Assembly: GCA_016858145.1 (NCBI GenBank)
Contig: JAEHOE010000081.1
Coordinates: 434,001 to 498,000 of the forward strand
Length of the DNA stretch: 64,000 nt
Origin: Edaphochlamys debaryana
Lineage: Eukaryota; Chlorophyta; Chlorophyceae; Chlamydomonadales
Reading direction: 5' to 3'
This document shows positions 1 to 61,200 of the stretch, one piece after another (the first letter of the stretch is position 1; every line of letters starts with the position of its first letter). The position numbers and the translations under genes were made by a program. The notes beneath the pieces are model-generated. The model was not told where the DNA came from. It was given only the letters and a program-made list of their open reading frames with translations, and did no database searches.

Positions 1-3000
1 GCATCGCCGCCCGTGTCAAGCCGGGCTCGCCACCCTGGCACATCTCCGTCATTGCGGGTGGGTGCTCCGGTCCCTCACTCCCTCTTGACCTCCCCCGCGC
101 TTCCCCTCCCCCCCATGTGCCCCCCGCCCCCCCCCCCAACCCCTCATTTTCTGAGTTCGTGCGCATGGTATCCTTCGCCTCTATTGCGCCCGGGCTCGTT
201 CCTAATTTCCATCTGGCCTACTTCGCCCCTCCCCCCCGTTTCCCCCGTGGCCCTTTCCCACGCATTCGCCGGGGCACCGCTGCTTACCCTCTTCCTGCCC
301 GCTTCCCCGCCACCCAACAACGCCGCAATTACGCCCCTCGAGTGCCTGGCCCGCCCGACCCACCTGACCCACCTGGCCAGGATTCCCCCACTCCAAAGGC
401 GCCGTGGTCAAGTCGGCCCCAAGTCGGCCCCACACGTCGGACAAACACACACACGCCCCTCCCCCCCTTCCTCCCCCCCCGTCCCCCCAGGCGCCGTGGT
501 CAAGTCCGCCCTGGCCGCCCTCACCGCCTCCTCCGAGTACCTGGCCCACCTGGCCAAGGGCCACTTGCCGCCCTCCTCCCTCTCCCTGACGCGTATGGCA
601 CACGCCATGGTCATCAACGGAACCAAGTACACCGTGTCGGTGAGCGGTTGGTGATCTAGATCTAGCGCAGATCTAGATACGGTACGAGGTTGGTTGAGGA
701 TCGTAAGGGATGATAGTACAGTACACGGTGTCGTTGTGGTTGGGGCATGCGCTGAGTTACGTTGTGGACGCCATTGGCTAGTTGGCTTCCTGATTACGAG
801 TGGTGTTATAGGAGTGAGACAGCAGTCGTCGCGGCAATCTGGAGGATCACAGCCAGGGATAGGGTAAGAACCGCAGCAGCAGCAGCAGCAGCAGCTGTTG
901 CCGTCCCCACGGCTTCACCCTCCGCGCCCCTGCACCCGACCGGCCCCCTCCTTATCCCCCCCCAAACCACCCCCAGCTCACCCGCCGCGGCCCCGGCCTC
1001 GCCACCGTGGAGCTCAACGGCTCAACCGTCGACGTGGCGTACCGCTCCGTCAACGGCGACGGATTCCTGATCCAGGTACGTTCGTACGGCAGTACGGCCG
1101 AAATGGATAGGGGTGAAGCAGACGTCCCGGTTTCGCGGACAGAGGATTCGTTGGGGCCGGGGTGCCATTCACCTACCGGCACCAACCACTACTAACCAAC
1201 CGCCAACCGCCAACCGCCGGCAGGTGGACGGCGAGTCCCACGTGATCCACTACGAGGAGGAGCCGGGCGGCACTCGGCTGTTGATCAACGGCCTCACGCT
1301 GCTGCTGGCCAAGGAGGTGGACCCCACCCGCCTGACCAGGTAGAGGGGGGAGGGGTAAAGAGTCAAGGGAAGGAGGGGGCGTAAAGAGAGGAGGGTCAAG
1401 AAGAAGGCGGCTATTGCACTACTGCAGGGAGGGAGCAAGGAAGAAAAGGGGGAAGCAAAAAGAAGGCGTGGGGAGGGGCGAGGATACCGGAGTCGAAAGC
1501 GCACACACACAGCCATCCTGGCCCCCTCCCCCCTACCCTCCCTACCCCCCCCCCCCAAAATAAACAGCGCCTCCCCCGGCAAGCTGGTCCGGCGGCTGCT
1601 GCCCAACGGCGCCAAGGTGGCGAGGGGGCAGGCGTACGCTGAGGTTGAGGTGATGAAGATGGTCATGCCGCTGCTGGCGCAGGTGGGGGCCGGGGGGCGG
1701 GGGGGCTGCGGGGGCGTGTGTGTGTTTTTCAGCACGCGCGGGTGCGGGGCGGAGGGAGGTGGAGGTGATGAAGATGGTCATGCCGCTGCTGGCGCAGGTG
1801 GGGGCCGGGGGGGCGGAGGGGGCTGCGGGGGCGTGTGTGTGTTCAGGGCTGCTCGTGGTCAAGGCCGAGAGTAACGTAGGCGCGGTGATAAGCCGGCCGG
1901 ACTGAGTGTGTCGGCACGCATGCGTGTCGGCGCGTTGGGGGGGACCTGGCCGCGAGTGCTTCCTTCGGCCTCCTTCGACTCCGTCGCTTACCGCTTGCAC
2001 ATGAGGCACAGCTCATGGCCTGCTCTGCGAGCCAGCCCCCGCCCCCCTCGTCGCCCCCCCCCCCCATTGCCCCCCCAGAACCCGGGCACCATCAAGTGGG
2101 TGGCCCCCGAGGGGTGCGTGTCGAACCACACATACACACACACGCCCCTCCCCCTTCCCCCTCCTCTCCCCCCCCCATCCCCCCCCCAGAACCCGGGCAC
2201 CATCAAGTGGGTGGCCCCCGAGGGGTGCGTGTCGAACCACACATACACACACACGCCCCTCCCCCTTCCCCCTCCTCTCCCCCCCCCCCTTCCCCCCCCA
2301 GAACCCGGGCACCATCAAGTGGGTGGCCCCCGAGGGGTGCGTGGTGGCGGCGGGCGAGCTGCTGGCCTCCCTGGCGCTGGAGGCGGGGGCGGTGGTGGCG
2401 GCGCCGGAGCCCTTCACGGGGGCCTTTCCGGAGCTGGGGCCGCCACAGGTGGGGGGGGGGGGAAGGGAGGGGGGAAGAGGGGCAGAGTGGGAGAGGGCGG
2501 AGGGGAGGGGTTGGGTGGAAAGGGGGTGAAGCGAGTGACGCAGCACGAGCACACGTGCCCATGCACACCCCGCCTCCCCCCGCACACGCGTAACGGGTTC
2601 GGGATGGGCTTCGGACTCGGACTCTCGGTTCCGTATCCAAGGCCGACCGGCTAGTCACCACGCCTACGCTTCCCTCGGCTCAAGCATGCAGCCATTCACA
2701 CCCCGCCTCCCCCGCCATCCCCCCCACCCCCCCAGCTCCCCAGCGCCCGAGTCGACGCCGTGTTCGCCTCCGCCCTGGAGCACGCCAAGAACATCCTGGC
2801 GGGCTACGTGGACAAGCCGGCCAAGGCAAGGGGGGGGGGGGGCTTGGGGGGCAGACATAGACAGACATAGGCAAAAGGGGGACGGGGGAGGGGAGCCAAG
2901 ATCATCCTGGCGGGATACGTGGACCCGCCGGCTAAGGCAAGGGGAGGAGCAGGAGAGAAGCCTGAGGGGATGGGAGCAGGGGTAGACGGCAGGGGTTGGC

Positions 3001-6000
3001 ACCTCTCCGCAGCGAGAGGCAGGAGCAGACAGAGAAACATGACACTGGGCAAACGGGCGCAGAATCTGCCCCCCATAAATGAGTCTGACGTTAGCTGCCG
3101 ACGGCGATATATGCCACACCCAGCAACAGGCGATACCCTCTGCGACCAAGTGAGCCCCATCCCATCCCTCCCCCCCCTCCCCCTCCCCCTCCCCCTCCCC
3201 CTCCCCCCCCTGTCAGGTCGTGGAGGAGCTGGTCCGCTGCCTGGACTCCCCCGGCCTGGCCCTCCTGCAGTGGCAGGACCAGCTGGCTGTCGTACACAAC
3301 AAGCTGCCCGGCGGGCTGGTGGCGGCGCTGGAGGCGGCCGTGGACGCGCACGCGCAGGCGGGTTACACCGGGTTACAACGGGTTACGGAGGGGTTACGGG
3401 AGGGTTACGGGAGGGTTACGGGAGGGTTACGGGAGGGTTGTGGAAGGTTGTGGAGGGTTACGAAGGGTTTCGGGGAAGCTCATGGGAGTACACTGCCGGG
3501 GCCATGGCCGCAGCCACCGCTTCTCCCCTGCCCCTACCCCCCTTGCCCCCAAGACTATGTCTGAATCCGTCTGCCCCCTACCTCCCCCCCCTGACAGGAG
3601 GTAGCCCAAGCCATGGCCGCAGCCACGGCCTCCGCCGGCACCATCGACGAGGGGGGGGCCCTGGGGGTGGGGGTGCTCATGTCGATCGAGGGCGGCGGCC
3701 TGACGGCGGCGGCCGCGGCGGCGGCGGCGGCGGCGGCGCGCTGCCGCAACTTCCCCTCCGCCGCCGTCAGCGCCGTCATGGAGAGGGCGCTGGCGGAGGC
3801 CGCCCCCGCGGACCGCAACGGGCTGCAGGTGGGGCCTGGGGGGTTGGTGGTGTGTGGTGCCTTGGGGGTGGTGTGTTATCACTTTGGGGGAACAGGTGGT
3901 GGTTGTGGTGTTGGGAGGTCGGGGCCTAAAGTTGGTGATGCTGTGGTGGCGGTGTGGTGTGTGGGGGCTGGGGTGGGGGGGCCTCGGTGCTGCCGTTGCG
4001 GGTTCGGAAGGGGTGGCGCAGACGCGTCTCTTCGTGGACCTGGGCGTATGCTTGTGCTCTCACCGTCTGCACCGAGTGGCCAGCAAGCACACGCCTCACG
4101 CCTTCAGGATCTCGCCGGGCTTTCTGCTTGCTTACGGTTTCCCCGTTGGCTAGCGCACCTCCGCCCCCCTTTACCCCCTCCCTTCCTCCCACCAACAGGT
4201 AGCGCTGGAGCCGCTCTTCCGAGTGGCGAGCGAGCACGCCGGGGGGCGTTCGGTGAGGAGGGGGGAGGAGGGGTAGGAAGGGGGGGGGCGTTCGGTGAGG
4301 AGGGGGGGAGGAGGGGTAGGAGGGGGGGGGAAAAGGGGTAGGAGGGGGGGGGGGAAAGGGGTAGGAGGGGGGGGAGGAGGGGTAGGAGGGGGGGGGGGAG
4401 GAGGGGGAGGGAGGGTCTGATGGATGAGAGTCTCTACCTGTTGAGGTGTGCGGGGCGCTGTCATGCTGGCAGCGGCGGATTGACACCGCCTCAACAACCT
4501 CTCCCCTTGACTCTCCCCCCCTTCCCCCCTCTGTCAGGCCTACGGACGTGCCGCGGTGGGCTCCCTGCTCGAGTCCTTCCTGGCCGTGGAGGAGGCCTAC
4601 CTGGCCGCCCGCTGCACCGCGGGGCTGGACTACTGGGTGACCACGGACCAGGAGGCGGTGGACGCGCTGCGGAAGCAGCACCAGGGCAGGCTGCAGGTGG
4701 GGGGGGAGAGGGGGGCTATGTCTGGGACCTGACAGGGGGGGAGAAGGGGGGGACTACTGGGTGACCACGGACCAGGAGGCGGTGGACGCGCTGCGGAAGC
4801 AGCACCAGGGCAGGCTGCAGGTGGGGGGGGGAGAGGGGGGCTATGTCTGGGACCTGACAGGGGGGGAGTAGGGGGGGACTACTGGGTGACCACGGACCAG
4901 GAGGCGGTGGACGCGCTGCGGAAGCAGCACCAGGGCAGGCTGCAGGTGGGGCGAGGGCGGTTGGATTGGGGGTTGATGGGAGCGGTGTCCAGTGCTTCAA
5001 CCCCCTACACCGCCCTCAACGCACCACCCTTCCCCAGCCGCTCTTCCTTCCCCCCCAGCCCCCACTGACCTCCCCCCTCCCCCTCAACCCTATGTCTGCC
5101 CCCCCCTTGCCCCCTCACCCCTATGTCTGCAGGCCGTGCTGGACCTGGTCGTATCCCACCAGGGCCTGGAGCTCAAGGTGGCCTTCATAACGGCCCTCAT
5201 GGCGCGGATGGTGCTGCCGCGGCCCGCGCCCTACCGCCCACTGCTGCAGCGCCTGGCGGACCTCAAGCCGGGTGGGGGGGGAGGGGGGGGGGGAGGGGGT
5301 TAAGGGGCGCGTGTGTGTGTTTGGCCGACGCGTGGGGGCAGCCCGCTGCTGCAGCGCCTACCCGAACCCCTGCCCCTGCCCCTGCCCTCCCACACAAGGG
5401 TGTAGGGTTCTAGAGGTTCGCTGGATGTCTCGCAGCTTCGCAGAACGGTGTGCCCTGCTACCCTCATCGGCACTGATCTCTTCCCCCCCCCCTCAAATCC
5501 CTTGCCCCCCCCCCCCCCCAACTCCCCCCAGTCCCCGAGATGGCTGAGCTGGCCGCCCGCGCCGCCCAGCTGCTGGAGGAGAGCCACTTGGCGGACCTGA
5601 GGGCGCAGGTGGGGCCGCACGTGCGCAGATCACACTTGTACGGCATCTGCACGGCAACCGTGTCTGGCAGTGACTAACCATCTAGATCTCTCTCTAGATT
5701 CCCATCCATTGCCATCTCGCGGTCAATGCTCCAGCTGCAGACACACGCCACCCTGTCTGGTCCCCTGATGTCCACCCCCTCCCTCCAACCCCCCTCCCCC
5801 CCTGTCAGGTCGCCGCCGCCCTGTCCGGGCTGGAGATGTTCACCCCCGGCGCCGCCTCCGCCGCCGCCGCCGCCGACTCCCTGGCTTATGACGCCTCGGC
5901 GGCTCGGCGGGCGGGGCAGGGGGCCATCGATGTGTCCCACATGTGGGGGTGGGGGCTTGGGGGGAGGGAGGGAGAGAGGGAGGGAGGGGCAAGATGGAGG

Positions 6001-9000
6001 AAGTGGGGGCAAGAGGGGAGGGGAACGAAGGGGGCGGCAGGGTGTATGGGCTTTCACTTTTGCCTGGTGCTGGGTCGGGAGAAGAGAAGGCCGAGGTCTG
6101 ACCCCGTCCCTTGCCCTCCCGGTCGCCCTCTACACCCCTTCTCGCAGCGCCACTCAGCCGTCGGGTCTGGAGTCGCAGGTGGGGAAGGGCGGGTGGGGTG
6201 GGGTGGGGTGGGGAAGGGCGGTGGGGTGGGTCCCGAGGGCTAAAACCAAGCGTGCCAGGCAAGCGAGTGCGCGAGGGCACGCCCTCAGGGGCAGTGTTGC
6301 TATCAACGTGGCAGAGTGACGGAAAGTGAAGCCGTGTGGCACTTTTCCGGGCTCAGATCCAAGAAAGTGCAGAGCCGGCTTCACTTGTTACAGCTGTGAA
6401 CGCCCGAAGTGCTGTCCGCGCCTTCACTCTTTTGCCCCGTCTTGGGCGTGAAGTGCACACCCGGGCCCTGCAAACCCGGGACCTGTGGGGTCCCACACTC
6501 TTTCCCTACGCGTGGCTGCTGCAAGTAGCCCCCACGCCCTCCTCGCCCAGGCCTCCGCAGAGTAACCGGACTAGGCATTCGGGCTAGGGCCCTACGGGTT
6601 CCCGCAGTCTTTCCCTACGCTTGGCTGCAAGCAGCCCCCACGCCCTCCTCGGCCCTGCACTTTTAGGGCTGCCGGAGGCTGCGAAGTGCACTCCGCGCCT
6701 TCACTTTTGCCGCTGGCCAGGGCCTAAAAGTGCCGGGCCCTCCGCACTTCGGCCACGGGAAGATAGCAACGCTGCTCAGGGGCCCGAGGGCGCCCGAGGG
6801 GAGCGCCATGCAGCCAGCTGAGGGGCGCCTGAGCGAGCGCACCCTCGAGTGCACCTCCCGGTGAAGCATCCAGCGGGCTAATCAAGCACACACGCGGACG
6901 GACGACGCTCCAGGGTGGCGGCCCCCACGCGTCGGCAAAACACACACACGCCCTCCCCCCTCTTCCCCCCTCTTCCCCCCCCCTGTCCCCCCCAGGTGGA
7001 GCACCTGGTGGGCTCCGCTGCGGCCGTGGAGGACGCGCTGGCGGCACTGGTGGTGGACTCTCGGGGGGCGCCCCCCGCGCTGCGGCGCCGCGCGGCGCTC
7101 ACCTACATCGAGCGCCTCTACTCGCCCTTCATGATCACCCGGCCCATGGTGCAGCAGGTGGGGGGAGAGTGGGGGGGAAGGGGGCGTGTGTGTGTTTGGC
7201 CGACGCGTCAGGGGGGCAGGCTATGTGCTCGCCCTTCATGATCACCCGGCCCATGGTGCAGCAGGTGGGGGGAGGGGGGGTGTTGGAAGCTGATGAGCGG
7301 GAGAGAGAGCGTCTAGTTATTAGTGGGGAGAGGGGGGGAGGGAAGAGGGGGCCCGGAGTGAAGGGCGGTGCGCATCATCCCCGTCAGCCCCACGGCCCTT
7401 TTCCCCCCATACACACCCACGGAACTCACGCCTGAGCGCTCATTCCCCTCCCCCCAACCCTGCCCAGGTGGGCGACGGATCGCTCCTAGCTGTGTGGATG
7501 TTCGACGACCCCGAGGCCGCCAACACACCCAGGGCCACTCAGCGCCTGGCGGCATTGCTCATGGTGGACCGCCTGCAGCAGCTGAACGAAGGTGGGGGGG
7601 AGGGGGCGGGAGGGAGGGAGGGGCTGGGGGGCCAAGAAAGAGGGGTGAGGGAGCACGTGTCGACTGGTGACGGGTGCAGGGGAGGGGGCGGGGGCATGCT
7701 GGGGGCGGGGGGGCGGGGGCAGGCAGGGCGGTGAAAGGGTTCCGCACCTTACTAAGGCCTCAGGCCTTCGATCTCCCACGGTTTGCCTCACTCTGCACTC
7801 TGGTCCTCAGCTTCTTCCTTAGCACCTGCATTAATTGTTCATTACCTGCAGGCATCGACGCCGCGGGCGAGCTGCTTGCCGACCTGTCGGCATCCGCGGG
7901 CGGGGCGTGCTCGGTCGGCACGCTGCACGTCGCGCTGTCGGGCACCGCCAAGCGCGAGACGAAGCGCGACGACGCCACCACCGCCGACTACTGCGACATA
8001 GAGCTGATGAAGAAGCTGGGCGGCAAGGACAAGCGCGCCGTGGCCGCGAACGTCGCGGTCGCGACATCCTCGACCAAGATCGACTCGAGCGGCACGGGCA
8101 TGACCATCTCGGGCGCGCAGGAGGCGGCCAAAACCGGCGTGGTCAAGGCCGAGAAGAACAGCAAGGAGGGCGGCAAGGAGGCGGCCAAGGGCGCGAGCCC
8201 GCCCGCGGCGCTGGTCAACGCCGCGACCGCGGTCGCGGGCAAGAGCTCCAGCGACCGCGTCCTCATCGGCGGCTCCATCAGCCCCTCGGCCTCCATCGAC
8301 GTCATGCTTCCTCCAGCGGACCAAGTCGTGGAGGAGTCGCGCGCGACCGCGACCGCCATCAATTTCGCGATTCATTCCGCGGGCGCCAAGCTCGCCTCCA
8401 TCGGCTTCTCGCACGTCTCGGTGCTGGCTCCGGGATCCACCGCGATGCCGATGCGCCTGGGCTGGGCTTGGACAACCACCTCAACGGGCGGCTCCTACCA
8501 GCCCGATTCCTTCATCTCCACGGTCGAGCCGGTCACAGCATCGCTGCTGGAGCTGAGCCGATTCTCGGCCGTCGCGGCCGCAGCGCACGCGGCCCACAGA
8601 GACTCTGCCGAGGGCAAGGTCGCGAGCGCCGGCGCGGGCGTGGGCAAGGAGGCCGCGGGCACCGGCCTGCCATCGCTCATGTACCGCCCCAGCCGCTCAC
8701 ATCAATGGCACCTCTTCACGGTCCAGGAGCAGAAGGACGTTCGCTCGCCGCCCCTGCGCCGTCTGTTCGCGTGCGGCCTGGTCCGCGCGCTGGGACACCC
8801 GGTGAGCCCTGCCTGCTTGGCCTGCTGTGCTGAAGCTGCGGCCCATGCGCCGTACACGATGTGTGGCCGCGTGGGGTGTCGGTGGATCAAGGTGTGACCC
8901 TCCGTCCCGGCCCCCAAAGTGCTTGCGCCCATCCCACACTCCCTCATCTCTCCCTCCATCCCCCCGCCCCCTCTCCCTCATACCTCTTTCCCATCTCTCC

Positions 9001-12000
9001 CTCGCCCCCCCCCCCCCCCAACCTCAGGAGCTGCTGGCCGCGTCGTACAGCGGCAACGGCCACAGCGTTGCGGTCGCGGCGGTTACCGAGGTGGAGGAGG
9101 CCCTGGCCAACTGCCTCAAGGTGGGCTTGGGCGGGGGGGTTGGCAATTGGCAGTTGGCAGTTGGCAGGCTTTCTTCAAGGCATCCTCCTGTACCCTTCCT
9201 CTTGACCAAACGACACCCCCCCCTCGCCACCGTCCCCCCCCCCCAGGAGCTGGAGGCCTCCATGACCCCCCCAGAACGCGGAATGTCCCGGAATGTCCCT
9301 TCCCCCCCCCTACCCAATCCTGATGCCCCCTTGCCTCCCCCCCCCTCTCCACCCCTCCCCCCAGGAGCTGGAGGCCTCCATGACCCCCGAGAACGCGGGC
9401 GTGGAGAACCCCGCCGACTCCACGCGCCCCGACTGGACCTCCATCTACATGAACGTGCTCACGCCCCTGCCCCTATCGCCGGGGGGCCGGGACGACGTGC
9501 GCGTGGCGTCAGCGCTGCGATCGGCGGCCGCCGCCATCGTCACGCGGCACGGCGCGGCGCTGCGGCAGGTGGGCCCGGGGTGGGCCTGGGCCTGGGCCTG
9601 GGATGGGGGCCTGCGTAGGGCCTGGGCGGGTGCGGGAGTTGGCTGCGCTGCGTCAGCCCCCGGTCAACGCCGCTCTGGCTAGTAGCGGTTCAAGGCCGGA
9701 CTCAAGCACCTGCACACCTGTCCGACCCCGCCTGCACCTGCCCCCAGGCAGACAGACAGATGTTACAGGTGTTGACCCAACCCGCACGTTCCGCACCCAA
9801 CCCGCACGGTCCGCACCCAAACCTCATGTCCCCCTGCGTGCAGGCTGCTGTGGCGGTGTGGGAGACGCGGCTGCGGGGGCCGCTGCGGGAGGCGGCGTGG
9901 CGCGTGGTGGTGTCCATGCCCACGGGTGGGGAAGAAGCCGGGGGGAAGGGAAGGGTTCGACGCCGGAGTAACGTGGCGCAGAGGGGTCCTGAACAGGGAC
10001 AGGAGGGGGAGGGGGAGGGGGCGCCGAAAACCGAAAGGAGAGCCAGGAAGCACGTCTTATCCCAACCTTGACCGTGCTGTACTGCCTGCCGTACCGTACC
10101 CCTGCCGTACAGGCCACGAGCACGGCGAGCAGCACGTGGAGGTGTACCGCGAGGTCCCCGCCGACCCCGCCTCCTTCACCCGCTCCCCCACCCGCGTGCC
10201 CCGCACCTACATGCCCGCGCCCGCCTTCGCCACCGCGACCGCCGCCGCCGCCGCCGCGGCCGCCGCCACCGCCGAGGGCGGCGCCGCCGCTGCTGCCGTA
10301 CCGGTGTACAACAACATCGCGCCGTTCTCGGCGGCGGGCGCCGCCCAGGACGGACCCGTCAAGGTGGGGTTGGAGGGAGGAGGCTATGGGCCTGTCGTCA
10401 CGTGTCGAGCTCTGTCTTCACCATATCCTTCTTCACTCTTCCAAACCACGACTCCTCTATCCGCTTCACCCCTCCCATGTAACCCCATGTAACCCCTGCC
10501 CCGCCAGGCCATGACGGTTGACAACCGCGGCCGCCGCGCGCCCGCCAACTACCCACTGGCGGGCACCCTGGTGGGCGCGCCCTTCCCGCCCCTGGCGCCG
10601 CTCATGCAGGTGAGCGGTTGGCGGTTGGAACGGTTGGAAGTTGAGACGGTTAGAGCCAGTCCCGGCGGCACTTCTTTCGGTTTGCAGAGACTGAGACACT
10701 CTTCATCATGGCGCAACCCAAGCCACACAATGCGGCCCCCGCTGATCTGTTCGTACTGCGCCGGCCGTACCGTGCCGTACTGTACCGCAGAAACGCCTGG
10801 CGGCCCGCAAGCATAACGTGACGTACGTGTACGACTACCCGGGCGTGTTCGAGGCGGCCCTTCAGGATCTGTGGGCGGCGCGCTCGGCTGCGGGTGAGGG
10901 GACAAGCGTGTGTGTGTGTGTGTGAAGGGCTGCTCGCATGAGCCTGGGAGTCTGTGTGCCGCGCCTGTGTGTGGAGGGGGCGCCTGAAGGGGATTGCCCG
11001 AGGGACGGCGCATGTAGAAAGCAAAGCACATCCTGCGGAGGCATCTCGTGGGGAAGCTGAGGAGACGACGAGCACGAGGGTGCGGAGCAGATGGCGCTGG
11101 CCCTGGGCTCGGCTGCTGGGCTCCGGTTGCTGACATGCATCACGGCTCTTCACCCCCACCCACCCCCTAAACCCATCAACCTCCAGGCGAGCCCAACTCA
11201 ATCCTCCCCGCGGCCCAGCTGGTGGAGACCGTGGAGCTGGTGCTGCCCCAGCAGGTGTGGGGGGGGGGAGGCAAGAGGGGGGGGGAGGGCAGGAGGGGGG
11301 GGGGGGGGCAGGAGGGGGGGGGGGGGGGCAGGAGGGGGGGGGGAGGGCAGGAGGGGGGGGGAGGGCAGGAGGGGGGGGGGGAGGGCAGGAGAGGCAAGAG
11401 GGGCGGCAAGAGGGGCGGCAAGAGGCAAGCAGCAAGGAGGGTGGGGCAAGAGCGAGGGAGGGCGGAGGGAGGTGGCGGCCAGGGCAAGAATGGTAACCGG
11501 GCCCCTGCACCCACCGCCGCCGGCGCCGCGCCGCCCAAAACACACACGCTTTACCCCTCCTCCTCCCACCTTCCCCCCGCAGCCCCTGCTGGAACTGGAC
11601 AAGAACGGCAGCCGGGCCATGGGCCCCTGCACCCAGCACCGTGCCGCCCAAAACACACACGCTTTACCCCTCCTCCTCCCGCCTTTCCCCCCCTTCCCCA
11701 GCCCCTGCTTGGCCTGGACAAGAACGGCAGCCGGGCCATGGGCCCCTGCACCCATCACCGTGCCGCCCAAAACACACACGCTTTACCCCTCCTCCTCCCG
11801 CCTTTCCCCCCCTTCCCCAGCCCCTGCTTGGACTGGACAAGAACGGCAACCGGGCCATGGGCCCCTGCACCCATCACCGTGCCGCCCAAAACACACACGC
11901 TTTACCCCTCCTCCTCCCACCTTCCCCCCCCTCCCCCAGCCCCTGCTTGGCCTGGACAAGAACGGCAGCCGGGCCATGGGCCCCTGCACCCACCACCGTG

Positions 12001-15000
12001 CCGCCCAAAACACACACGCTTTACCCCTCCTCCCCCGCCTTTCCCCCCCTCCCCCAGCCCCTGCTTGGACTGGACAAGAACGGCAGCCGGGCCATGGGCC
12101 CCTGCACCCATCACCGTGCCGCCCAAAACACACACGCTTTACCCCTCCTCCTCCCGCCTTTCCCCCCCTTCCCCAGCCCCTGCTTGGCCTGGACAAGAAC
12201 GGCCACCGGGCCATGGGCCCCTGCACCCATCACCGTGCCGCCCAAAACACACACGCTTTACCCCTCCTCCTCCCACCTTCCCCCCCCTCCCCCAGCCCCT
12301 GCTTGGCCTGGACAAGAACGGCAGCCGGGCCATGGGCCCCTGCACCCATCACCGTGGCGCCCAAAACACACACGCTTTACCCCTCCTCCCCCGCCTTTCC
12401 CCCCCTCCCCCAGCCCCTGCTGGGACTGGACAAGAACGGCAGCCGGGCCATGGGCCCCTGCACCCAGCACCGTGTCGCCCAAAACACACACGCTTTACCC
12501 CTCCTCCCCCGCCTTCCCCCCCCTCCCCCAGCCCCTGCTTGGCCTGGACAAGAACGGCAGCCGGGCCATGGGCCCCTGCACCCACCACCGTGCCGCCCAA
12601 AACACACACGCTTTACCCCTCCTCCCCCGCCTTTCCCCCCCTCCCCCAGCCCCTGCTAGGACTGGACAAGAACGGCAACCGGGCCATGGGCCCCTGCACC
12701 CACCACCATGCCGCCCAAAACACACACGCTTTACCCCTCCTCCCCCGCCTTTCCCCCCCTCCCCCAGCCCCTGCTTGGCCTGGACAAGAACGGCAGCCGG
12801 GCCATGGGCCCCTGCACCCACCACCGTGGCGCCCAAAACACACTCGCTTCACCCCTCCTCCCCCGCCTTTCCCCCCCTCCCCCAGCCCCTGCTAGGACTG
12901 GACAAGAACGGCCACCGGGCCATAGGCCCCTGCACCCACCGCCCCCACCCCAACACACACGCTTTACCCCTCCTCCCCCGCCTTTCCCCCCCTCCCCCAG
13001 CCCCTGCTGGGACTGGACAAGAACGGCAACCGGGCCATAGGCCCCTGCACCCACCGCCCCCACCCCAACACACACGCTTTACCCCTCCTCCCCCGCCTTT
13101 CCCCCCCTCCCCCAGCCCCTGCTGGGACTGGACAAGAACGGCAACCGGGCCATGGGCCCCTGCACCAACTTCCGCAGCCCCCCGCGCCTGCGCCCCGCCC
13201 CCGCCGGCCGCCCGCTGGTGGGCGGCAACGACTGCGGCATGGTGTGCTGGCTCATGACGCTGCGGACGCCCGAGTGCCCGCAGGTGGGGCGCGGGGGCGG
13301 GGGGGAAACGGGGGGAAAGCGTGTGTGTTTTGGGACGCGTGGGGGCGAGGGCTGACGCCTGCGGCATGGTGTGCTGGCTGCTCACGCTGCGCACGCCGGA
13401 GCACCCGCAGGTGGGGGCAGGGGAAAGCGCCCCGGGTGGGGGACGGAGGGGAAAGCGTGTGTGTTTTGGCACGCGGCGGGACGGCGAGTGGTGAGCTTTG
13501 GCTGCTGGCCGCGGTAGGCCCCGCAAGACGTCCTCCCCCTCAGTCTTAGGGCCGCTTGCCCTTGTTGCCTTGGCCGATGCCATCACGCGCCCCCCCATTT
13601 CGCTCCTGACCCCCCCTCCTCACTCCTCCCCCTTCCCCCTCTATCAGGGCCGCACCGTTGTGGCGGTTGCCAACGACATCACGTGGGCCTCGGGCTCCTT
13701 CTCCCCCGCAGAGGACGCCGTGTTCCGGGCGGCCTGCGAGTACGCCCTGGAGGAGCGCCTGCCGCTGGTCTACCTGGCGGCAAACAGCGGGGCCCGCGTG
13801 GGCCTGGCCAACGAGGTGAGTCATGCAGGCGTTATTTAGTCATGCGTTACGTAAAGTAACGGCGTACGGCGCATGCAGCCTGCCTGACGCAACGCGGTCG
13901 AGAGGAGAAGCCTTTGCAACCTGGAGACAAGCCCTCCCCCTTCCCCCCGTCCTCCCCCCCCCCCCTCCCCCCCCTGTCAGGTCCGAGACTGCCTGCAGGT
14001 GCACTGGCGCGACCCCGCCCAGCCCGAGGCCGGCTGGGAGTACCTGTACCTCACGGAGCGGGACTACCTTCGCCTCACACAGAACACACCCGTGGGTGCG
14101 GCGCCGTGCGTCAGGGCCGAGGTGCGTAAGCCCCTGGTGCCGCGGGGGGGGGGGGGCGGGGGGCTTGAGGGGAGGGCGTAGAACGGGGCTCGAGCAGCAG
14201 AAGCTAGCAGCGTGCCGGCCCCCCTACCCGGCTCACACTCCTGACCCCCCGACCCCTGAGTCCCCTCCCCCCTCCCCCTCTTGCCTATGTCTGCCCCCCC
14301 CCCCCCTCCCCCTTCCAGCCCCGTGCCACCCCCGACGGTACCCACTACGTCGTAACCGACGTGGTTGGCAACGAGGACGGCATCGGCGTGGAGTGCCTCA
14401 GTGGCTCCGCCGCCATTGCCTCGGCCTTCTGCCGCACCTGGCGCGAGGGCTACACGGTGACGCTGGTGTCGGGGCGCACCGTGGGCATCGGAGCCTACCT
14501 GGCGAGGCTGGGCCGGCGGGTGGTGCAGCGGGCGGACCAGCCCGTGGTGCTGACGGGGTACGCGGCGCTGAACAAGCTGCTGGGGCGGCAGGTGAGGGGG
14601 GGGAGGGAGGGGAGGCGGGGGAGATGGGTGGAAGGTGGAGGGCTGGGGCTACTGCACCGGGAGCCGAGGTGTAGAGCTTAAAGACTGTGGATTGCGCCTC
14701 ACGGTACCGTCAACTTCTTCCTGCAATTCTCGCGAGCCGCACGGCGCCTCTTCACGCCTCCTCCCCTTTCCCCCCTATCAGGTCTACACCTCCCACATGC
14801 AGCTGGGCGGCCCCCGGGTCATGGGTTTCAACGGCGTGTCGCACCACGTGGTCGCGGACGATCTGGAGGGCGTTACAACCGTACTGCGGCTGCTGTCGTA
14901 CGCGCCCGCCGCTACGGGCGTGGCGCCGCAGCCACTGCCCACGGGTGGGCCACGGGGGTCGGGGTTCAGGGGGTCGGGGGGCGAAGGGCTGAGGGTAGAG

Positions 15001-18000
15001 GGCGTAGGTATGAGGTATGATATGGCCTCGCTTGATATGGCTGCATGGCCAGCTAGTTTGACACACCCAACACTGCCGGAACATGAAACCCCCTGCATCT
15101 TGCCCCCCCTCCCCCCTTTCTCCCCCCCCCCAGCCGATCCCGTCGACCGACCCGTCACCTACGCCCCCGGCCCCTCGGAGAAGCTGGACGCCCGCGCGGC
15201 CATCGCGGGGCGGGAGTCGGCCACCGGGTGGCAGGTGGGGAGCGGGGGGACGGGGGGGGCTGTCGGGGAAGTGTGTGTGTATGGGTGTGTGTGGTGGGGT
15301 TGAGCGGCCATCGCGGGGCGGGAGTCGGCCACCGGCTGGCGGGTGGGCGGGTGCAGGCTCGTTGGGAGGGGGAAGGGGTGATTGGGGTCCAGGGGAAGGG
15401 GCCCGGGTGTGTGTGGTGGTGGGGAATGTTGTGGGGTGGAGTGGGTGTTGGGGGCTGGCAGGTGGGCGGTCAGGGCCCCTGGGGTGGGGGGCTGCTTGGG
15501 GGCTTGGTCTGGGATGGAGAGGAGAGTACCGCAGCGATTTGGGGGACGGGGCTGAACCCTGCACCCGCCCAAGTCCGGTGCCTGCCGGGGACATACGAGC
15601 AGTGCCTGTGCGGTACTTCACCCGACAGGTGCTCTTTCCTCTTCACCCGTTGTCCCTTGCAATCGGGCCTGTCCGACAAGGGCCCAATGAGTTGCACGGG
15701 ATATTACCTTCTCTCTAGGGGATGAAGCTGCCTGGGACCCACGAGCAGTGCCTGCGCGGGGCGTTTGGTTGCTCGACAGGAAGTGCACTATTTTGAGCCC
15801 CACCTTACCCTCCATTCCTCCCTTTTTCGCCTTCGCGTTTTGTGCTTTTGCCGCGCCCCAGTCGGGCCTGTTCGACAAGGGCTCCTGGCTGGAGAGCCAG
15901 GCGGGCTGGGCGCGCACCGTGGTTACCGGCCGCGCCCGGCTGGGGGGCGTGCCCGTGGGCGTCATTGGCGTGGAGTCCGCCACCGTTATGCGGGAGGTGC
16001 CCGCGGACCCGGGGCTGCCGGAGTCGAGCGAGAGCGTCGTGCCGCAGGCCGGACAGGTGGGTGGGTGGGTGCGGTGGTGGTGGGTGTGGGGGGGAGCGCG
16101 GGGGAGCCTCGTGCCTGGCACCTAGGGGAGGCCTCCGCCGAAAGTGACGGCTCCACACCCGTGCAAGACATGCCTTGACCAGCCAGGAACGCTTTCACAC
16201 CCCCCTTTCCCCCGCCGCCAGCACACGCACACGCACCCATACACACACACCTTTCCCCTCCCCCGTCCCCCCCCTTCAGGTGTGGTACCCCGACTCCGCC
16301 GACAAGACCGCCGCTGCCATGGAGGAGTTTGCGGCCGAGGGGCTGCCGCTCTTCATCCTGGCCAACTGGCGGGGTTTCAGCGGGGGGCAGCGGGACCTGT
16401 TCGACGGAGTGCTGCAGGTGGGGGGGGGGGGGCGGGGGGGAAAGGGGAGGGGGAGGGGGGAGGAAAGCGTGTGTGTATCGTGACGCGTGGGGTTGCGGCT
16501 AGGGGGCAGCGGGACTTGTTCGACGGAGTGCTGCAGGTGGGGAGGACAGGGACAGTTAGGAGAGGAGGGGCGCTGAGCCTTCATACCGGCAACGTGACAC
16601 AAGCCAACTCACCGCCACGGGGGCGTGTCCCCGCCTGGCGAAGGAAGGTGGTTGGAAGGTGGCCTGTGTTTGCAACCTGCGAGGTAAAGAGAGGATGGTA
16701 CACCTAAACCAACCCCAACGCCTCCGCCCCCCAGGCCGGCTCCCTGATCGTGGAGCGGCTCCGCACCTACAAGCACCCCGTCTTCGTGTACATCCCCACG
16801 GGCGCAGAGCTGCGGTGAGCCAGGGAAGGGTCGCATCTGGCTTGCGTCTGGCTTGCGTGTGTCTGTGTGCGCTGCGGCATTTGCCCCTTTTCTGGGGTGG
16901 TGGTCGCAGCAGGGAATCTGGGGGCGGAGGAGAAATCGGGGCAACCGGCGCTCGGGTGTAGATTGCGGTCGCACAACCTTAACCTCCCGCCCTTGAACCG
17001 TACCGCATGCCCCACCCCTTCCCGCTGCCCCTCACCCTTCCACCCCCTCTCAACCCCCAGCGGCGGCGCCTGGGTGGTGATTGACCGCCAGATCAACGCG
17101 GGGGCGGTGGAGACCTTCGCCGACCCCACCGCCCGCGGGGGCGTGCTGGAGCCGGAGGGCATCGTGGAGATCAAGTTCCGTACGCCGGACCTGGTCAAGC
17201 TCATGCACAGGTGGGCCCGGGGTGGGCCTGGGGTGGTGTAGGGTAGGGCTGGGTGGGCCTGGGTGAAGGCGAGGACTAGGAGCAGGGATGGGCTTGGGGC
17301 CCCCGTATAAGCAGCCCCCATGCTCAACCCCCAGTCCCCCACCCCCTCACGCTCTCAAGCTAAAGCTCTATGCCTTCCCTTGACCCCCCCTCCTGTCAGG
17401 ACCGACTCCACCATCGTGGCCCTCTGCGCCACCCTCCTTCCTCTTACCACTCTGTACAACTAGATCCTCCCCCCCTTTGCCTCCCCCCGCTTTCAGGACC
17501 GACCCCACCATCGTGGCCCTCCGCGCCGCCGGCACCACCGCGGCAGACCCCGCCATCCGCGCCCGCGAGCGAGAGCTACTGCCGACATACTCGCGAATCG
17601 CGAGGACCTTCGCCGACATGCACGACACGCCCATTCGAATGGCCGCCAAGGGCGTGCTGGACGCGATCGTGCCCTTCGCGACTTCTCGCAGCTTCTTCTC
17701 CACGCGGCTTCGACGGCGCCTGCTGGAGCAGCAGCTGTTGCGACACATCACCACGACCGATCCATCCATGCCGACCGCGCGCGCGCAACGGATGCTACAG
17801 GCCTGGCGCGACGCGGCCGAGGTCGCTGCGAGCGGCAAGCAGGGCCCGGCCGCGGAGCCCGTGGATTCGGTCGCGGCCGCGCAGGCGGACGTCGCGACAT
17901 CGCATGATCGCGCCTTTTTGGCCTGGGCCGAGAGCCCGATGGGCCGCGCGGTCATCGCTGGGGAGCTGAGGGCGCTGCGCCGCGCCGCTGCGTCGGACAT

Positions 18001-40607: not shown

Positions 40608-40627
40608 CACGTGGGGGGGGGGGGGGG

Positions 40628-40672
40628 GCTGACTGGAGGGAGGCGCACAAGGGCGAGTGCCATACGTGCTAG
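40628..40672 (+). pseudogene. Remnant of a second MYND-finger C terminus
   Basis: Twenty bases after the stop of MYND copy 1, beyond a G-run, the sequence reads ADWREAHKGECHTC and a stop. This matches the end of the finger (ADWEEGHKNECQRHC) but is clearly diverged. It may be a decayed tandem copy of the last exon end, or an alternative terminal exon. No acceptor AG lies directly before it. Confidence 0.65.
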
Positions 40673-49876: not shown

Positions 49877-50644
49877 GGCGACCGAGTGCAGCGAAACAGC
49901 CTCAAGATTCACACAGGGGACTCTTCCTGGCTGAGAAAGCAAGCAGGAGAGCGTGATGAGCTAAGGCGTGGGAACATTTCGGGCTGGCAGTTGGGCAGGA
50001 TGCGCTAGAGTCCCTCGAGAAACGCATTGACACACTATCCACTGCATCGGGGTATGAGCACTCAGGCGTGGAGTTGCAGCGGCTATGGGGCTTTGCGAGT
50101 ACTGCGACATTGTGGGGACAGTGCCCTCCGCATGGGGGCGAGGCACTTCTCCGCTGGGACCCCTTCGAGCAAGGAACCCCCTCGCCCTAATGCCCGAAGA
50201 CTGGCCCAGACACCCAACACGCAGCACGCCCAGAGTTAGGCGAAGCGAGACTTTACACGGGGACCCGGACCCGGACTGAGTGGCACTCCCTGCATCAGCA
50301 ACGGCCAACTCCGCCCCCCGTGTTCTTCAGAACCGTGATGATGCCATTGACCACGACAGGCTCTACAGTACAGCTCTGAAGTAGAGCTCCGATTCACTCC
50401 TCTTGCAGCACCCACTGTGCCAGACTCTCCAGGCGTTACCTCCCACTACCCCCTCCTCCCCCCCAATGGAGTTCAGCACGCACCACATCCGTACGCGCCG
50501 TACTCGCAAGCCCCCACTCATAATCCGCCCATCCGGCGGCACAAGCAGGGGCACCATCCGGCCATTGAGATGCCACACGCGTGTCTCTGCGATCCAAACG
50601 CAGATCCATATCCTAACCCAGATCCAGGCCCCTGCGAGGAGCCC
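49877..50644. other. Region between MYND copy 2 start and RIX1-like gene end
   Basis: Should hold the promoter of MYND copy 2 and the 3' UTR of the RIX1-like gene, both on the minus strand. Open frames here are short and unrecognised. TTACA near 50252 would read TGTAA on the minus strand about 390 bases past the RIX1-like stop and may be its polyadenylation signal. Confidence 0.5.
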
Positions 50645-53600
50645 TCAAGCGTCCTCGCTGCCGCTGTCGTCCCCGGAGTCGATATCCGGCAGCGAACCCT
50701 CGCTGTCCTCGCTCTCATCCCCGCCGCCAAACACCGCCGCCGCCGCCGCCGCCCGCTGCGGCGCTGGCGCTGCTGCAGCCGCCGCAGCGACGGCAGGCGC
50801 CGGTGCCGGTGCCGCTGCCGCCGCCGCGGGTGTCGGTGCAGGGGCAGGCGCCGCGGCGGCGCCTTCGGCAGCCTTGGCTTTGGCATCCGCCGTCTTTTGG
50901 CGCTTGCCTCCTCGCGTCTCCATGGCTGGAGGCTCCGCCGCGTCTCGCCCCTTGCCGTTGCCCTTCTTCCCTGCCGCACCCGCCCCATCCTTGGCCGCCG
51001 CCCCTGCTTTCCCGGCACTCGCCACCGCCGCTGCGGCTCCCTTGCCTGCTGCCGCGCCGTTGCCCTTGGCGGCGGCTGCGGCAGGGGTGGCGGCGGCCTC
51101 CGCCTTGGCGCCCTTCTTACCGGAAGCCTTGGCTGGCGCCGGCTGTGCCGCAGCCGCCGCTGGCTCAGCGGCAGCGACGACGGCCGGCGCCGCAGCCGGC
51201 GGCGGCAGCTGCGGCTGCACGGGGTCCAGAATGCTCCACAGCCTGGGCCTGCCCAGCTCCATGCTGCCGCCGCCGCCGCCGCCCTGCCTGGCGTCGCCAC
51301 CAGCGCCTGCCGCCGCCGCCGCGCTGCGCGGCCTCAGCAGCGGCTCCAGCGCCGCCAGGCCCTCGCTGCAGGCGTGCGCGAACTCAAGGCCGCCGCCGGG
51401 GGCGGCGCCGCCGCCAGCGGCGCCGGCACGCAGCAGCGCCAGGCCCTCGGGCAGGAACGGGTGGCGGCTGGGCCACGGCGCCGCCAGGCTCGCTGCCAGC
51501 GCCCGCGCCGCCGCCACGCGCAGCGCCGCCAGGGTGGCGGCGCGGGCCGCCGCCGGGCCGTTGGGCTCCGCCGCCGCCTTGAGCGCCGCCTCTGACGTCA
51601 CCGCTGCCACGTGGTAGCACAGCGCGTCGATCTGGCCCCGAACGTCTGACGTCAGCGCCGGCCCCGCCGCCGCCAGCAGCGCCGCCGCCAGGCCCAGCGC
51701 CGCCACCTGCGCCGCCGCGTCGTCGGGCGTCATCACTGGCGCCGCCGCCGCCGCCACTGCCGCCGCCGCCGCCAGGTCGATGCCAGCCAGCGGGTCAGCC
51801 CCGCCCTTGGCCTTCTTGCCTGGCGGATGCCCACCAAGCATCCCCGCCGAGCGACCGCCGCCGCCGCCGGCCTTGCCGCCGAGGCCGGTGCCGTACAGTG
51901 CGGCCTGCTGCGCGGCCTGCTGCTGTACGGCACTGAGGCCGTACAGCTCCGTGACCAGCGCGCCGCTGACCTCCACCGCCAGGGAGCGGCCGGCTGCCAT
52001 GCCGCCGTACTGCAGTACCGCCGACGTGGCGTCGTACAGAGCCGCGCGAACGGAGGGCGGCATGGCGCATGCGAGGCCGCCTGCGCCGCCGGCCTTGACC
52101 CTGCGCGTGGGAGCACGTCAGCACGTCACCACCGGTCCTTTCGACTGCTCGTAATTGCTTGCCAGACTGCCCATCGCCGTCCGCTCGTGCGCCCCATCGC
52201 TCTCCTCGCACCCAGCTCCTGGCAGCTCGTCTTTCCCTCTCCTTGCCCCTTCCCCTCCCTCTTCCCCTCACGCTTCCCTGCCCCGAACCCCCTCATCCCC
52301 AGATTCCCACCTCCTCAGCTGCTCCGACAGCACGCGCGAGACCAGGGCGCCCAGGGGCATCAGCGCGCCGCGGCCCACGCGGACCAGCAGCGCCAGTAGC
52401 CCCCAGCCGCAGCGCTGCAGACCGGGAAGCGCCGCCAGCACCGCCGCCTGCGCAGAGGCCGAGGGCGCAGTGCGGCCGGGCGCCAGCAGCGCTGCAGGGG
52501 AGAGAGGGCGTGAAGGCGAGGGTTGAACGGGATTGAGGGCGAGCGCTGCCAAATGGAGGAAGGAGCTCAAGGGCGATGCATCTAGTGCCTTCGGTAGGTA
52601 TCCCCTATGCGGTCCCCGCTTGCAACATGCGCGCCCGCTCTGCTCCCACCCGTCGGCTGCAGCTTGCACTGCAGTGCAATGCGGCAGAGGCAGCACGCCT
52701 CCGCCCCCGTCCTTCCCAGCCCCCGCGCCCAGCCCCAGACCCCGCCCACGCTGCGACCCCGCCCCCACCGGCCGGCTCCAGCTTGCTCAGCCGCATCACC
52801 GCCAGCAGCACAGCGTGCGCGGGCAGCGGCACGGGCGCCCCCGCCTCGCCCGACAGCAGCGCCGCCAGCCCGTCAAGCAGGGCCAGGGTCACCTGGGACG
52901 GCCGGGTAGGAGAGGGGGGGAGGTCCATGGGGAAACGCAGGTAAGCAACACGTAATGTGGGCGCGCTGGCCGGGAAGAGAGGTGGACCGTCCAGCAGGGC
53001 CAGGGTCACCTGGGGGGAAGGAAGGCGGGCAGGACCGGGGGAGGAGCCATGGGGAAGCGCGGGTGTGCGGGACAGGCCTTGGGTGGGTAAAGTGGGCACG
53101 GAAGCCGGACAGAGGGCGGCGGGAGGACAGCGCAGGGTTAGAAACCAGGCCAAGGCACCAAGGCACCAAGGCTACTCGTTCTGAGAGCAATGGCGGCCAG
53201 AGGCTGTTCCGCCCCAAAGCCAGCCCGGCTTGCCTGGATCACGTGCGTTGCGTCCGTGCGGGCCGCCGCCGCGCCGCTGCCGCCAAAGCCCGCCGCCGCC
53301 AGCAGCCCCTCCGCCTCCGCGCCCGCACCCGCCGCGATGCCCAGCTGCTCCCTGGCCCTCGCCGCCAGCCCAGCGTCCCCCGCGCCCCCGCCCATGCCCG
53401 TGCCCTCGCCGCCTCCGCCGCCGCCGCCCAGCGCCCCTAGGAGGTCTAGGGCGGTGTGCAGGGACAGCAGCAGGCGGCGGCAGGCCGTGCTCCAGGCCGC
53501 GGCCTCGGTGGCGGAGGCGCGGGGCAGCAGCGCGACCAGCCGGGCCGCGTCGGAGCGCTGCGGCGGCGGCACGTCGGGCGCCGCGATGAGGGCGGCGGCG

Positions 53601-54863: not shown

Positions 54864-55295
54864 TTCGGCAAAAGAAACGTGACAAGCAAGCTAGGAGCGG
54901 CAGATACCAGTTCGTTTGCGTGCAGGTAGGCGTGCCGCTAGTTCATGCTGCCCATTAACCTGTCCTGTACATGTCCGGAACAATTGAGAACATAATTCGA
55001 GCGTTTGGGGCCAAGGCGAACACAGCACGGGCGCAGCACGCCCTACCGATGCAGGGCGCTCTCTGTTCGCGCGGTTCACACTTTACAAGTTGATAGCTCA
55101 CGAGCAGGCGCTGTTTACGTCAGGCACTAGGCGTGCTTAAGCCCTCGCATCTCTCCGCTCGGCTTTCCTGGTGCCAGATGGAGCCCTTGCAGAACTTCTG
55201 CTACCAACATTGCTCATAGGATAGGATAGGATAGGATCCTGGGCTGCCCACTGGAGCGGGGCTTGCCGCGCGGGAGCCTGCTTGAGCGCGGGAGG
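54864..55295. promoter_or_regulatory. Divergent intergenic region, RIX1-like and DUF4211 genes
   Basis: 432 bases separate the two opposite start codons, so this is a candidate bidirectional promoter for two nuclear proteins. It contains a run of ATAGG units (about 55215-55238) close to the plus-strand gene. No TATA box is obvious. Confidence 0.5.
55215..55238. repeat. ATAGG pentamer repeat
   Basis: Four to five tandem ATAGG units end in GGATCC, 60-80 bases upstream of the DUF4211 gene start. Confidence 0.85.
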
Positions 55296-58200: not shown

Positions 58201-61200
58201 CGCACACCCCCTCTCCCCTCCCCCATCGCCTGCCCCGTCTCCCCTCCCCCTTTCCATCCCAATCTGGCCCCCCTGATCCTTGAGCACCCCCTTTCCCTTC
58301 CCTTGTCGATCCTTTCCCGCGCCCCCCCCCCACCAGGAGCCCATGGCCTGCGCCGCCCTGCGCCTGGAAGTGGGCGACGACGACGACCAGGTCCGACTCA
58401 ACAAGCGGGCGGCGCACAGGTGAGTCAGCGCATGATGACTAAGTCACAGGTGGAGACGTAAGAGCTGGGCAGGCCCGGCCTGTCACGATATGCGCAGCTG
58501 GCGTGTGCGCATGGCTCCCGTGCGCCCTCTGCTTGCCCGGCCGTGCCAATTTGCGCTGGCCGCGTGCGCATCGTGTCGGCTACCCTTTACTGGGATATCG
58601 CTTGCTGTCCTTCAGCCTCCACGTCCCACTCCACGTCATCGTCACCCCTCCTCCCCTCCGGCCCCTGCAGGCGCTTCGAGGGCGACCTGGACCAGGCCGC
58701 GTGAGTACGGCATTAGTCATGGAGCGAAGCCACCGGGCGGCAGCGGAGTCGTTGGGGGGCAGGGATGGGGAGGGAGGCGGATAGCGAAGGTTCATGGAGG
58801 GAGGCAGGGGGCCCTGTTTATCCTTGCGGGCACCTGCATGAGCAGCCGTGGTAGCCCTCCTTGCCTGGCGGAGCAGGCCCAGTACAGACGACAGACAGAC
58901 CCTCATATCCCTCCCCCTTCCCCTCCCCCCCCTGCAGGAGCCAGACCACCTCCTTCCACTGGGTCACGGCCGACACCCAGTACAACCTGCGCAAGTGGGT
59001 GGTGGCTGGGGGGGCAGCGGAGGGGGGGAAGGGGGACCGCACTGCAGGGGGGCCTCCTCGCCGGCAGCCGCTTCGGCCAACCCCCCTACCGCCCTCCTCT
59101 CTCCCCCTCTCCCCCCAGGATGCTGCGGCGCTACCCCACCCTGCTCATCAAGGGCATGACCGCCGACAAGTTCTACGGCCGGGAGGGGGCGGCGGCGGCG
59201 CAGGAGGAGGCGCTGCGGGGGGAGGACCCGGAGGCGCTGGGCGGGTGAGCGGGGGTAATGGGGGTGGGGCGGATGGCCGGGCGTGGCTGCGCGCGGGCTG
59301 CTTGCATCGCCGCTGCTCCTCGCCACTACTGGAAGCCGTGCTATGGTTGACGGCTGGGCTGGGTGCGTGTGAACTATGGCGATGACGAGCACACTCCTGA
59401 CCGCTCCTTTCAAGACCGCTCTGCTCCTCGCTCTGCTCCTCCTGCACCACAACGCCCCCGGACCACTTCGCCGCTGCAGGCCGGGCTTCGTCGACGAGAC
59501 GGAGGGGATGGCGTGCAAGTGCACCATCTGCAACTCCAACAGGCGAGAGGGGTGGTGGGCAAGAGAGTGCGGACCGCTTCCAGGTCACAATGCTTTGCAG
59601 CCCCTGCCATTACCCTTCCCCTCTCTCTCCTGTCCATAGGCCAACCTGAATCTCGAGTCTCGACCTGACGCGCCTCCCTCAATCAACTTCTGTGGCACAG
59701 GCGGCGGAATACCGCTCAGAGTCAAACACCCCCTTTCCCCCTTCCACCCCTTCCACCCTCCCCCGTCCCCCCTTTCCCCCCTTGCCCCCAGGACGCACAC
59801 GCTCCACGAGATCCGCCTGGAGGGCGACCCCGTGGACGGCGTGGACGAGCCGGAAGTCGAGGAGCCGGCGGAAGACAAAGAGGCGCCGCCGTCGTCATCG
59901 CGCCGCGGCCGGCGCGGCACGCCTCGCGCCAAGCCCCGCAACGTGCGCGTGTTCTGGGCGGGCGGCATGTGCTGCGACCGCGTGGTGCTGTACCACTCGC
60001 TCGTGCACTTCAAGGTGAGGGGAGAAAGCGGGGGGAAAGGGCGGGGGAAGGAGGGGGGAGGAGCTGAGCGTGTGTGTGTTTCGGCACTCGTGGGGTGCGC
60101 GATGTCCCACTCACTGGAGCAATTGAAGGTGAAGGGAGGGGGGGCAAAGCGGGGCCCGGGGTGGTGCACTTGGCTCTGTGGGATGACTCATGTGGGGTCT
60201 TTCCCGTTTCCCCCCTCCCCTCCTTTCCCTCCCCTACCGACCCTTCACGCCCCCCTCCCCCTTCTCCCCTATCTCCACAGGAGCGGCTGCAGGCCGCCCT
60301 CACCAAGAGACTCAAGACCGTCCTGCGCTTCCAGCTGGGGGCGTACAACGGCCTGTGAGCTGGGGCAAGGGCTGCAGGCTGCATGGGAGCTTACCGGCCT
60401 GTTGGGGCTCCGTCTCTGCCATACATGCCTGGGCCTTTCCTGCAGAACCCGCACCCCCATTACTTGCACAGCCGCATCCCCCCTCACCCCGTCCCCTGCA
60501 AAACCCTTCCTACCTCTCCGCCACCTCCCCGCCCACCTCCCCGCCCACCTCTCCGCCCGCCTCCCCGCCCACCTCCCCGCCCACCTCCCCGCCCACCTCC
60601 CCGCCCACCTGCCCGCAGGCTCCCAGGCGCCCGCCTGCCCGCCAGCGTCCGCGGCGCCGCCCTCAAGGCCCTGCTCGACGTGGCCCCCCCCTCCCCCGGC
60701 AGCGGCCCCCCCACCAACCCCCACGCCGAGCCCAACCGCCGCTTCCTGCTGGCCGCCTTCTGCCGCTTCAAGGACGTGGTGGGGGCGGCCAAGAAGCTGT
60801 CGGCCACCGAGAACGTGCGCAAGAAGGACGGGCGGTACCGGCCGGGGAAGGAGGTGGGTGGGGTGGGGTGGGGTGGGGTGGGTGGGTGGGTGGGTGGGTG
60901 GGTGAGGCTGGCAGGGGGTTGAGGGATGCGAAGGAAGAGAGGAGGGAGAGAGGAGGGAGGGTAGAAGGAGGGAAGATGGATATTGGGGGAGGGGCGGTGC
61001 CGAGTGTGCCGGGGGACCTGGGTGGTGGGAGGTGGGAGGCCGACTTGGGGCTGCGAGGGTCGCTGGATCGCGGAGCGCGGCAATAGCCTCGGCGGCAACT
61101 AGAGAGACGGGGGGAAGTGCTCAAGGTGCGGAGTGACCAAGGGCGGCCATAACGATACGATAGAGTCAAGGCGTTGGACTAAAGCTACTGTTTCCGTCCC

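Follow-up and report, generated by a model that had tools for sequence, protein, structure and literature searches.

The change of introns and of intron ends is a long-standing question for which few recent cases are available for study. Among the described systems, introners are dispersed short sequences associated with splice sites; some have one splice site, and some have target-site duplications (TSDs) and terminal repeats. In the available part of their description, they arise by insertion as complete introns and have TSDs of 3–9 bp (PMC9860276). In the potato RdRp gene, a tandem duplication across an intron–exon boundary duplicated a splice site (PMC4974935; reviewed in PMC3443670), CST-Pol alpha has been linked to small tandem duplications at staggered breaks (PMC8355091), and gap mutagenesis at G-quadruplexes leaves lesions on one side of the G-tract, the events described being deletions (PMC4654259), each as far as the excerpts cited go. 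Here we analyze 64,000 nt of Edaphochlamys debaryana contig JAEHOE010000081.1 (assembly GCA_016858145.1, positions 434,001–498,000, forward strand; hereafter the window), in which introns of an acetyl-CoA carboxylase (ACC) gene carry copies of the adjacent exon edges, many of them enclosing a dispersed 26-nt core, GACGCGTCGGCRAAACACACACACGC.

We put at roughly one half the probability that these copies are long target-site-type duplications left by the insertion of a very small dispersed element made up of the fixed 26-nt head GACGCGTCGGCRAAACACACACACGC and a variable tail, rich in C and about 30 nt long. Like introners, the candidate element is short, dispersed and linked to splice sites; unlike introners as they appear in the excerpt cited, its insert is half an intron end, it duplicates some 40 nt, and its targets are introns already present. 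It shares with the potato case a boundary-crossing tandem duplication that doubles a splice site, while the latter is a single case that gave a new intron, and the available text mentions no common inserted core (PMC4974935). With the CST-Pol alpha and G-quadruplex systems it shares duplications bounded by staggered breaks and lesions on one side of a G-tract; the corresponding excerpts mention no recurrent inserted sequence, and the G-quadruplex work concerns deletions (PMC8355091, PMC4654259).

Exon edges are copied within introns of an ACC gene

The earlier note on this DNA, made from the letters alone, had claimed that exon edges are duplicated in introns together with their splice sites. 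To place the junctions we used a hand-built model of the 3′ part of the ACC gene, in which the copy nearest the exon was taken at each end; this model has no stops in 1998 codons, and the Pfam domains Carboxyl_trans, ACCA_BT and Biotin_lipoyl were matched on two spliced segments. Self-comparison of the window gave 36 scan matches, versus 12 in 80 kb of random loci, only some of these at exon edges, and none in dinucleotide shuffles of those loci. Within the ACC gene, the adjacent exon edge is copied in 13 of 35 introns and at 15 of 70 exon ends (score ≥14 of the end against its own intron), nearly always 92–127 nt away, while 150 mismatched pairs reached a maximum score of 11.4. Most ACC pairs listed in the note were recovered where it had placed them, including 399/491 by alignment; the pair 4241/4283 turned out to be a G-rich array (offset 42) whose exon-edge score of 5.2 equals background. 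Outside ACC, the scan recovered the pair at 52870, while 38322/38406 and 59991/60105 stayed below its threshold and are visible by eye only.

Elsewhere such copies are sparse: only 5 of 228 putative junctions in the random loci and in window positions 18–64 kb had one. This rate is higher than that over the whole set of positions (P = 1e-4; 460 of 223,626, which are not independent of one another), and its excess over positions 60–150 nt further along is weak and not clear (4 of 572, P = 0.13). Exon-edge copying is concentrated in genes rich in C or G runs and sparse elsewhere.

A dispersed 26-nt core lies between the copies

What the earlier note had overlooked is the main point, namely that many copy pairs enclose the same 26-nt core, followed by a pyrimidine tract up to the splice site. 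Within the window, 12 matches to AAACACACACACGCCCC were counted at ≤3 mismatches, versus 0.18 expected. Across the genome (141.9 Mb, 502 contigs), CGTCGGCNAAACACACACACGCC has at least 118 matches at ≤2 mismatches versus 0 for the reversed pattern, so that, as with introners, a near-identical sequence is dispersed in many genes; a looser 20-mer gave 418 matches versus 78. We examined the flanks of the 30 best matches, 40 further chosen stretches and the window, which together hold 139 core copies at ≤5 mismatches and 120 at ≤3 mismatches, the latter in 88 clusters on 33 contigs. Sequence information across the 88 clusters is limited to 26 positions: upstream nothing is conserved, and downstream there is C-richness only.

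A pyrimidine tract follows the core in 86 of the 88 clusters, compared with 7.8% of random windows, and the core is sense at acceptors and antisense at donors. Since two automatic rules for the splice edge disagree (AG:AC 35:38 with 15 unassigned, against 29:51 with 8 unassigned, the second rule stopping early inside tracts), we used a count by eye, in which the tract ends in AG (acceptor, sense) in 44 clusters, three of which form one array, in AC (donor, antisense) in 38, and unclearly in 6. From the start of the core to the edge of the exon, the two rules give 58.5 ± 8.2 nt (73 assigned) and 53.1 ± 9.4 nt (80 assigned), and both of them err. The dispersed head lies between two exon copies, with its tail toward the exon on either strand and at a near-fixed distance.

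Of the 88 clusters, 46 have a copy of the downstream exon edge immediately before the core (score ≥15), and in 36 the score exceeds 22.2, the highest value among 110 mismatched pairs. Taking one representative per cluster, 44 pass, and in the 38 of these with a gap of ≤32 nt the unit measures 113.6 ± 9.9 nt (range 92–137), which bears out the earlier claim of a shared unit size despite unrelated exons. Clusters forming arrays number 19 of 88. Of 40 testable clusters, 37 have n cores between n + 1 exon copies and no further core outside the outermost copy, indicating that the core was put between the copies rather than duplicated along with the intron. This is the mark of an insertion accompanied by a long duplication of target-site type, amplified in some cases into arrays. 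The earlier view of duplications centered on splice junctions and not due to simple slippage was right. Measured in 22 outermost units, the stretch of exon is 42 ± 14 nt long, with 10 ± 10 nt of filler. The filler lies at the head side of the core, ranges from 0 to 30 nt and is 53% C. Identity of the exon copies ranges from 80 to 100%, and 13 of 46 best copies are identical.

Several searches addressed the origin of the core. A palindromic parent element gave 0 matches at ≤3 mismatches, which, with a duplication of 42 ± 14 nt, is unlike a DNA transposon with terminal inverted repeats. When upstream flanks were compared by blastn for a longer parent, matches were core-centered among the matches listed, two queries being covered. 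Viral contigs held 0 exact core matches, and Rfam gave no match in the window. Core strings had no match in open-access paper text, which says little as papers print few sequences, and literature on introners in Chlamydomonas or exon-boundary duplication in Volvox gave no description, supplements and most subscription papers lying outside the search.

A second motif, CTATGTCTG, lies between C-runs, with 82 genome matches versus 4 in the control. It occurs in the window at 2851–2871, 3555, 4716, 5090, 5121 and 14285 and at C240:68573-69122 and other places, in tandem at a spacing of 88–135 nt. The motif is real but outside our main claim, because only some copies have exon-edge duplications.

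A candidate insertion mechanism and its rivals

In the mechanism that we propose, an exon edge would suffer breaks in its two strands, tens of nucleotides apart, and the tail would be joined there to the C-run, which reads as a G-run on the opposite strand. Fill-in would then duplicate the splice dinucleotide together with some 40 nt of exon. From then on, the gene would use the inner splice site beside the element, AG in sense and GT in antisense, so that the outer exon copy would become intron, and unequal exchange or slippage could later build arrays. The source of the insert could be RNA, through tail-primed reverse transcription, or DNA, through break repair. Of the two, we slightly favor tail-primed insertion, given the fixed head end, the varying lengths of tail and duplication, and the filler at the head side. 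It is conceivable, though we put it forward only tentatively, that we are dealing with a new mobile element of about 55 nt. Such an element would insert into either strand at the edges of exons, duplicate some 40 nt and bring a ready acceptor or donor depending on orientation; a whole intron could then arise from two convergent insertions.

Several observations weigh against insertion of such an element. The total length is unexpectedly near-constant (correlation of duplication start and length −0.82), which tail-primed insertion does not predict. No exon copy at score ≥15 was found in 42 of 88 clusters. In 6 of 22 units, two of which have a misassigned junction, the outer and inner pyrimidine tracts are alike above the 95th percentile of cross pairs, as if the tract had been duplicated too; the tract is therefore mostly, not always, part of the insert, whose tail end varies. 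Neither an RNA nor a reverse transcriptase nor a mobile parent came to light, no protein-level search having been made. Finally, the core may not be needed, given that core-free pairs share the spacing: 31 of 72 such pairs in the scanned loci fall at 100–140 nt and 42 of 47 core pairs at 80–140 nt, while the 80 kb of random loci hold 14 pairs, 1 of them at 100–140 nt, and no such peak. Some core-free inserts hold relics; the core may decay or be replaced, or else the size rule may be a property of the process and not of the core.

This shared spacing also speaks for the best-surviving alternative, break repair without a mobile element, which we nevertheless regard as rather unlikely. Here, replication stalling at the G-run of an exon edge would leave an exon-side single-stranded gap, and the staggered break would be filled in and joined with filler templated by the ends of other introns, with the core as a preferred template. 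Precedents, as far as the excerpts go, are the CST-Pol alpha duplications (PMC8355091) and the gaps at G-quadruplexes (PMC4654259). In agreement with it, C or G runs of ≥7 nt are dense in core loci (4.47 per kb, and 3.3 at >300 nt from cores) and in the ACC gene (3–6.75) compared with random loci (0.78). On the G-rich strand, the duplications are found 5′ of the G-run in 25 versus 3 of 54 core pairs and in 15 versus 3 of 56 core-free pairs, i.e., in 25 of 28 and 15 of 18 informative ones, most pairs being uninformative and two core-free rows (locus L002) repeating the paralog region. This polarity fits stalling, but splice geometry predicts the same polarity and could, together with low-complexity masking, account for it. 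Moreover, both ends of the core are fixed, which copied filler would not predict. Among the matches listed, occupied 20-kb bins are clustered on contigs C78 (5 vs. 0.24 expected) and C55 (5 vs. 0.29) and show no clustering on the large contigs C2–C4 (4 vs. 3.6). Along the window, C/G-run density falls sharply past ACC, from 3–6.75 per kb in 1–18000 to mostly 0–1 in 18000–64000.

As the origin of the pairs, slippage or ordinary tandem duplication across a core that the intron already contained is improbable. Arrays clearly grow in this way, as in the 14 copies in ACC, but the outermost copies without a core outside would demand loss of the core at that place every time, and in the core-bearing class the sequence between copies is not local sequence only. 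More generally, strand symmetry, fixed core and fixed size make RNA-primed, break-repair and slippage mechanisms separable.

Copies and intron history in two ACC genes

A second, collinear ACC gene lies at C130:125500-142500. Seventeen introns stand at identical codon and phase in both paralogs, some of the other 18 window introns being in poorly aligned stretches. About half of the paralog's introns are at other codon positions, pointing to high intron turnover or sliding in the family. In the paralog, 9 of 32 introns have an exon-edge copy (this count leaves out two of the 34 introns, which lie past position 14000 of the concatenation).

This comparison bears on a third alternative, that of a true introner inserting in exons and thereby creating introns, which we judge quite improbable. 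Introns 1683–2301, 5272–5531 and 11255–13115 carry copies and have no same-codon counterpart in the paralog. However, introns not common to both genes show no significant excess of copies (window, 8 of 18 vs. 5 of 17 common; P = 0.49; paralog, 3 of 15 vs. 6 of 17; P = 0.44), so that a link of copies to intron gain is not significant; each insert has one splice end rather than forming a complete intron. Of the explanations in the earlier note, introner-like insertion and recombination at C-run/G-run ends stay plausible, and generation of introns is improbable. Copies on common introns, with no significant link to unique ones, indicate that the candidate element mostly takes over existing splice ends.

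A copy is found in one gene only at introns that both genes have at 18.1 (window), 101.0 and 1113.1 (paralog), and introns 257.0, 1344.0 and 1737.0 have donor-side copies in both, with differing copy numbers in the last two. Because introns carry copies in one or both paralogs and some best copies are identical, the process is old and continued. One genome holds many events of differing age, in which splice ends are seemingly replaced and the reading frame stays open.

The earlier suggestion of reverse-transcribed splicing intermediates, and likewise an assembly artefact, would suit the exact coincidence of copies with splice junctions but is very improbable, since sense and antisense placements are about equally common, which disfavors spliced RNA as the vehicle, and diverged copies, units common to paralogs and the open ACC model argue against an artefact.

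Features of the window

Table 1. Exon-edge copies and cores in the window (pairs marked "added" were not listed in the earlier note)
Feature	Position	Strand	Details
3′ part of ACC gene	1..18050	+	hand-built; 36 exons (last end arbitrary), 35 introns
Outer copy of exon start at 491	397..414	+	18/18 nt; acceptor score 16.0
26-nt core, sense, at acceptor	431..456	+	core match
Degenerate core, antisense	1714..1739	-	5 mismatches in 20; between exon end 1641-1682 and copy 1756-1797
Copy of exon end 1641-1682 + donor	1756..1797	+	offset 115
Exon start at 2302 + acceptor, three copies	2056..2343	+	offsets 111/112 (2070-2302); partial cores 2132-2148 and 2243-2259 between copies, none before outermost
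Copy of exon end 2784-2825 (GC donor)	2895..2936	+	offset 111; insert of the 2784/2895 pair has CAGACATAG repeats, found in paralog too
Outer copy of exon start region at 3610	3501..3517	+	offset 109; score 16.9
Two more copies of exon end 4627-4696 + donor	4751..4951	+	period 124/125
Core, antisense, at donor of intron 5272-5531	5309..5334	-	exon copy 5341-5359 of 5236-5254; added
Core, sense, at acceptor of intron 6179-6995	6926..6951	+	no exon copy detected
Core, antisense	7184..7209	-	flanked by exon end 7121-7157 and the copy starting at 7228; offset 107
Outer copy of exon start at 9365	9239..9270	+	offset 118; no core recognized
14-copy array of exon start at 13116	11526..13166	+	offset ~118; each unit with diverged core AAAACACACACGC
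Copy of exon end 13228-13283	13355..13410	+	offset 127; preceded by diverged antisense core; 13228/13355 unit present as 5-6 copies in ACC paralog
Copy of exon end 15196-15234 + donor	15304..15347	+	offset 108
Copy of exon start at 15862	15663..15683	+	offset 199; score 18.4; added
Copy of exon end 16383-16417 + donor	16502..16542	+	offset 119; diverged antisense core before copy
Outer copy of exon start at 17497	17396..17430	+	offset 97; no core recognized
Exon-edge pair	24114/24181		added
Exon-edge pair outside ACC	52870..53014	-	offset 117; scan
Weak exon-edge pair	59991..60138	+	by eye; partial antisense core 60065-60081, 2 mismatches

The ACC introns starting at 2826 and 3358 were modeled with GC donors, and intron 3358–3597 holds a tandem array of GGGTTACGGGA, an 11-nt unit, at 3380–3474. 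A longer dispersed intron segment (GTGTTCAGGGCTGCTCGTG...GCGCGGTGATNAGCCGGCCGG) occurs at two unrelated loci, at about 1838–1905 in the window and at about 3395–3455 in locus L046.

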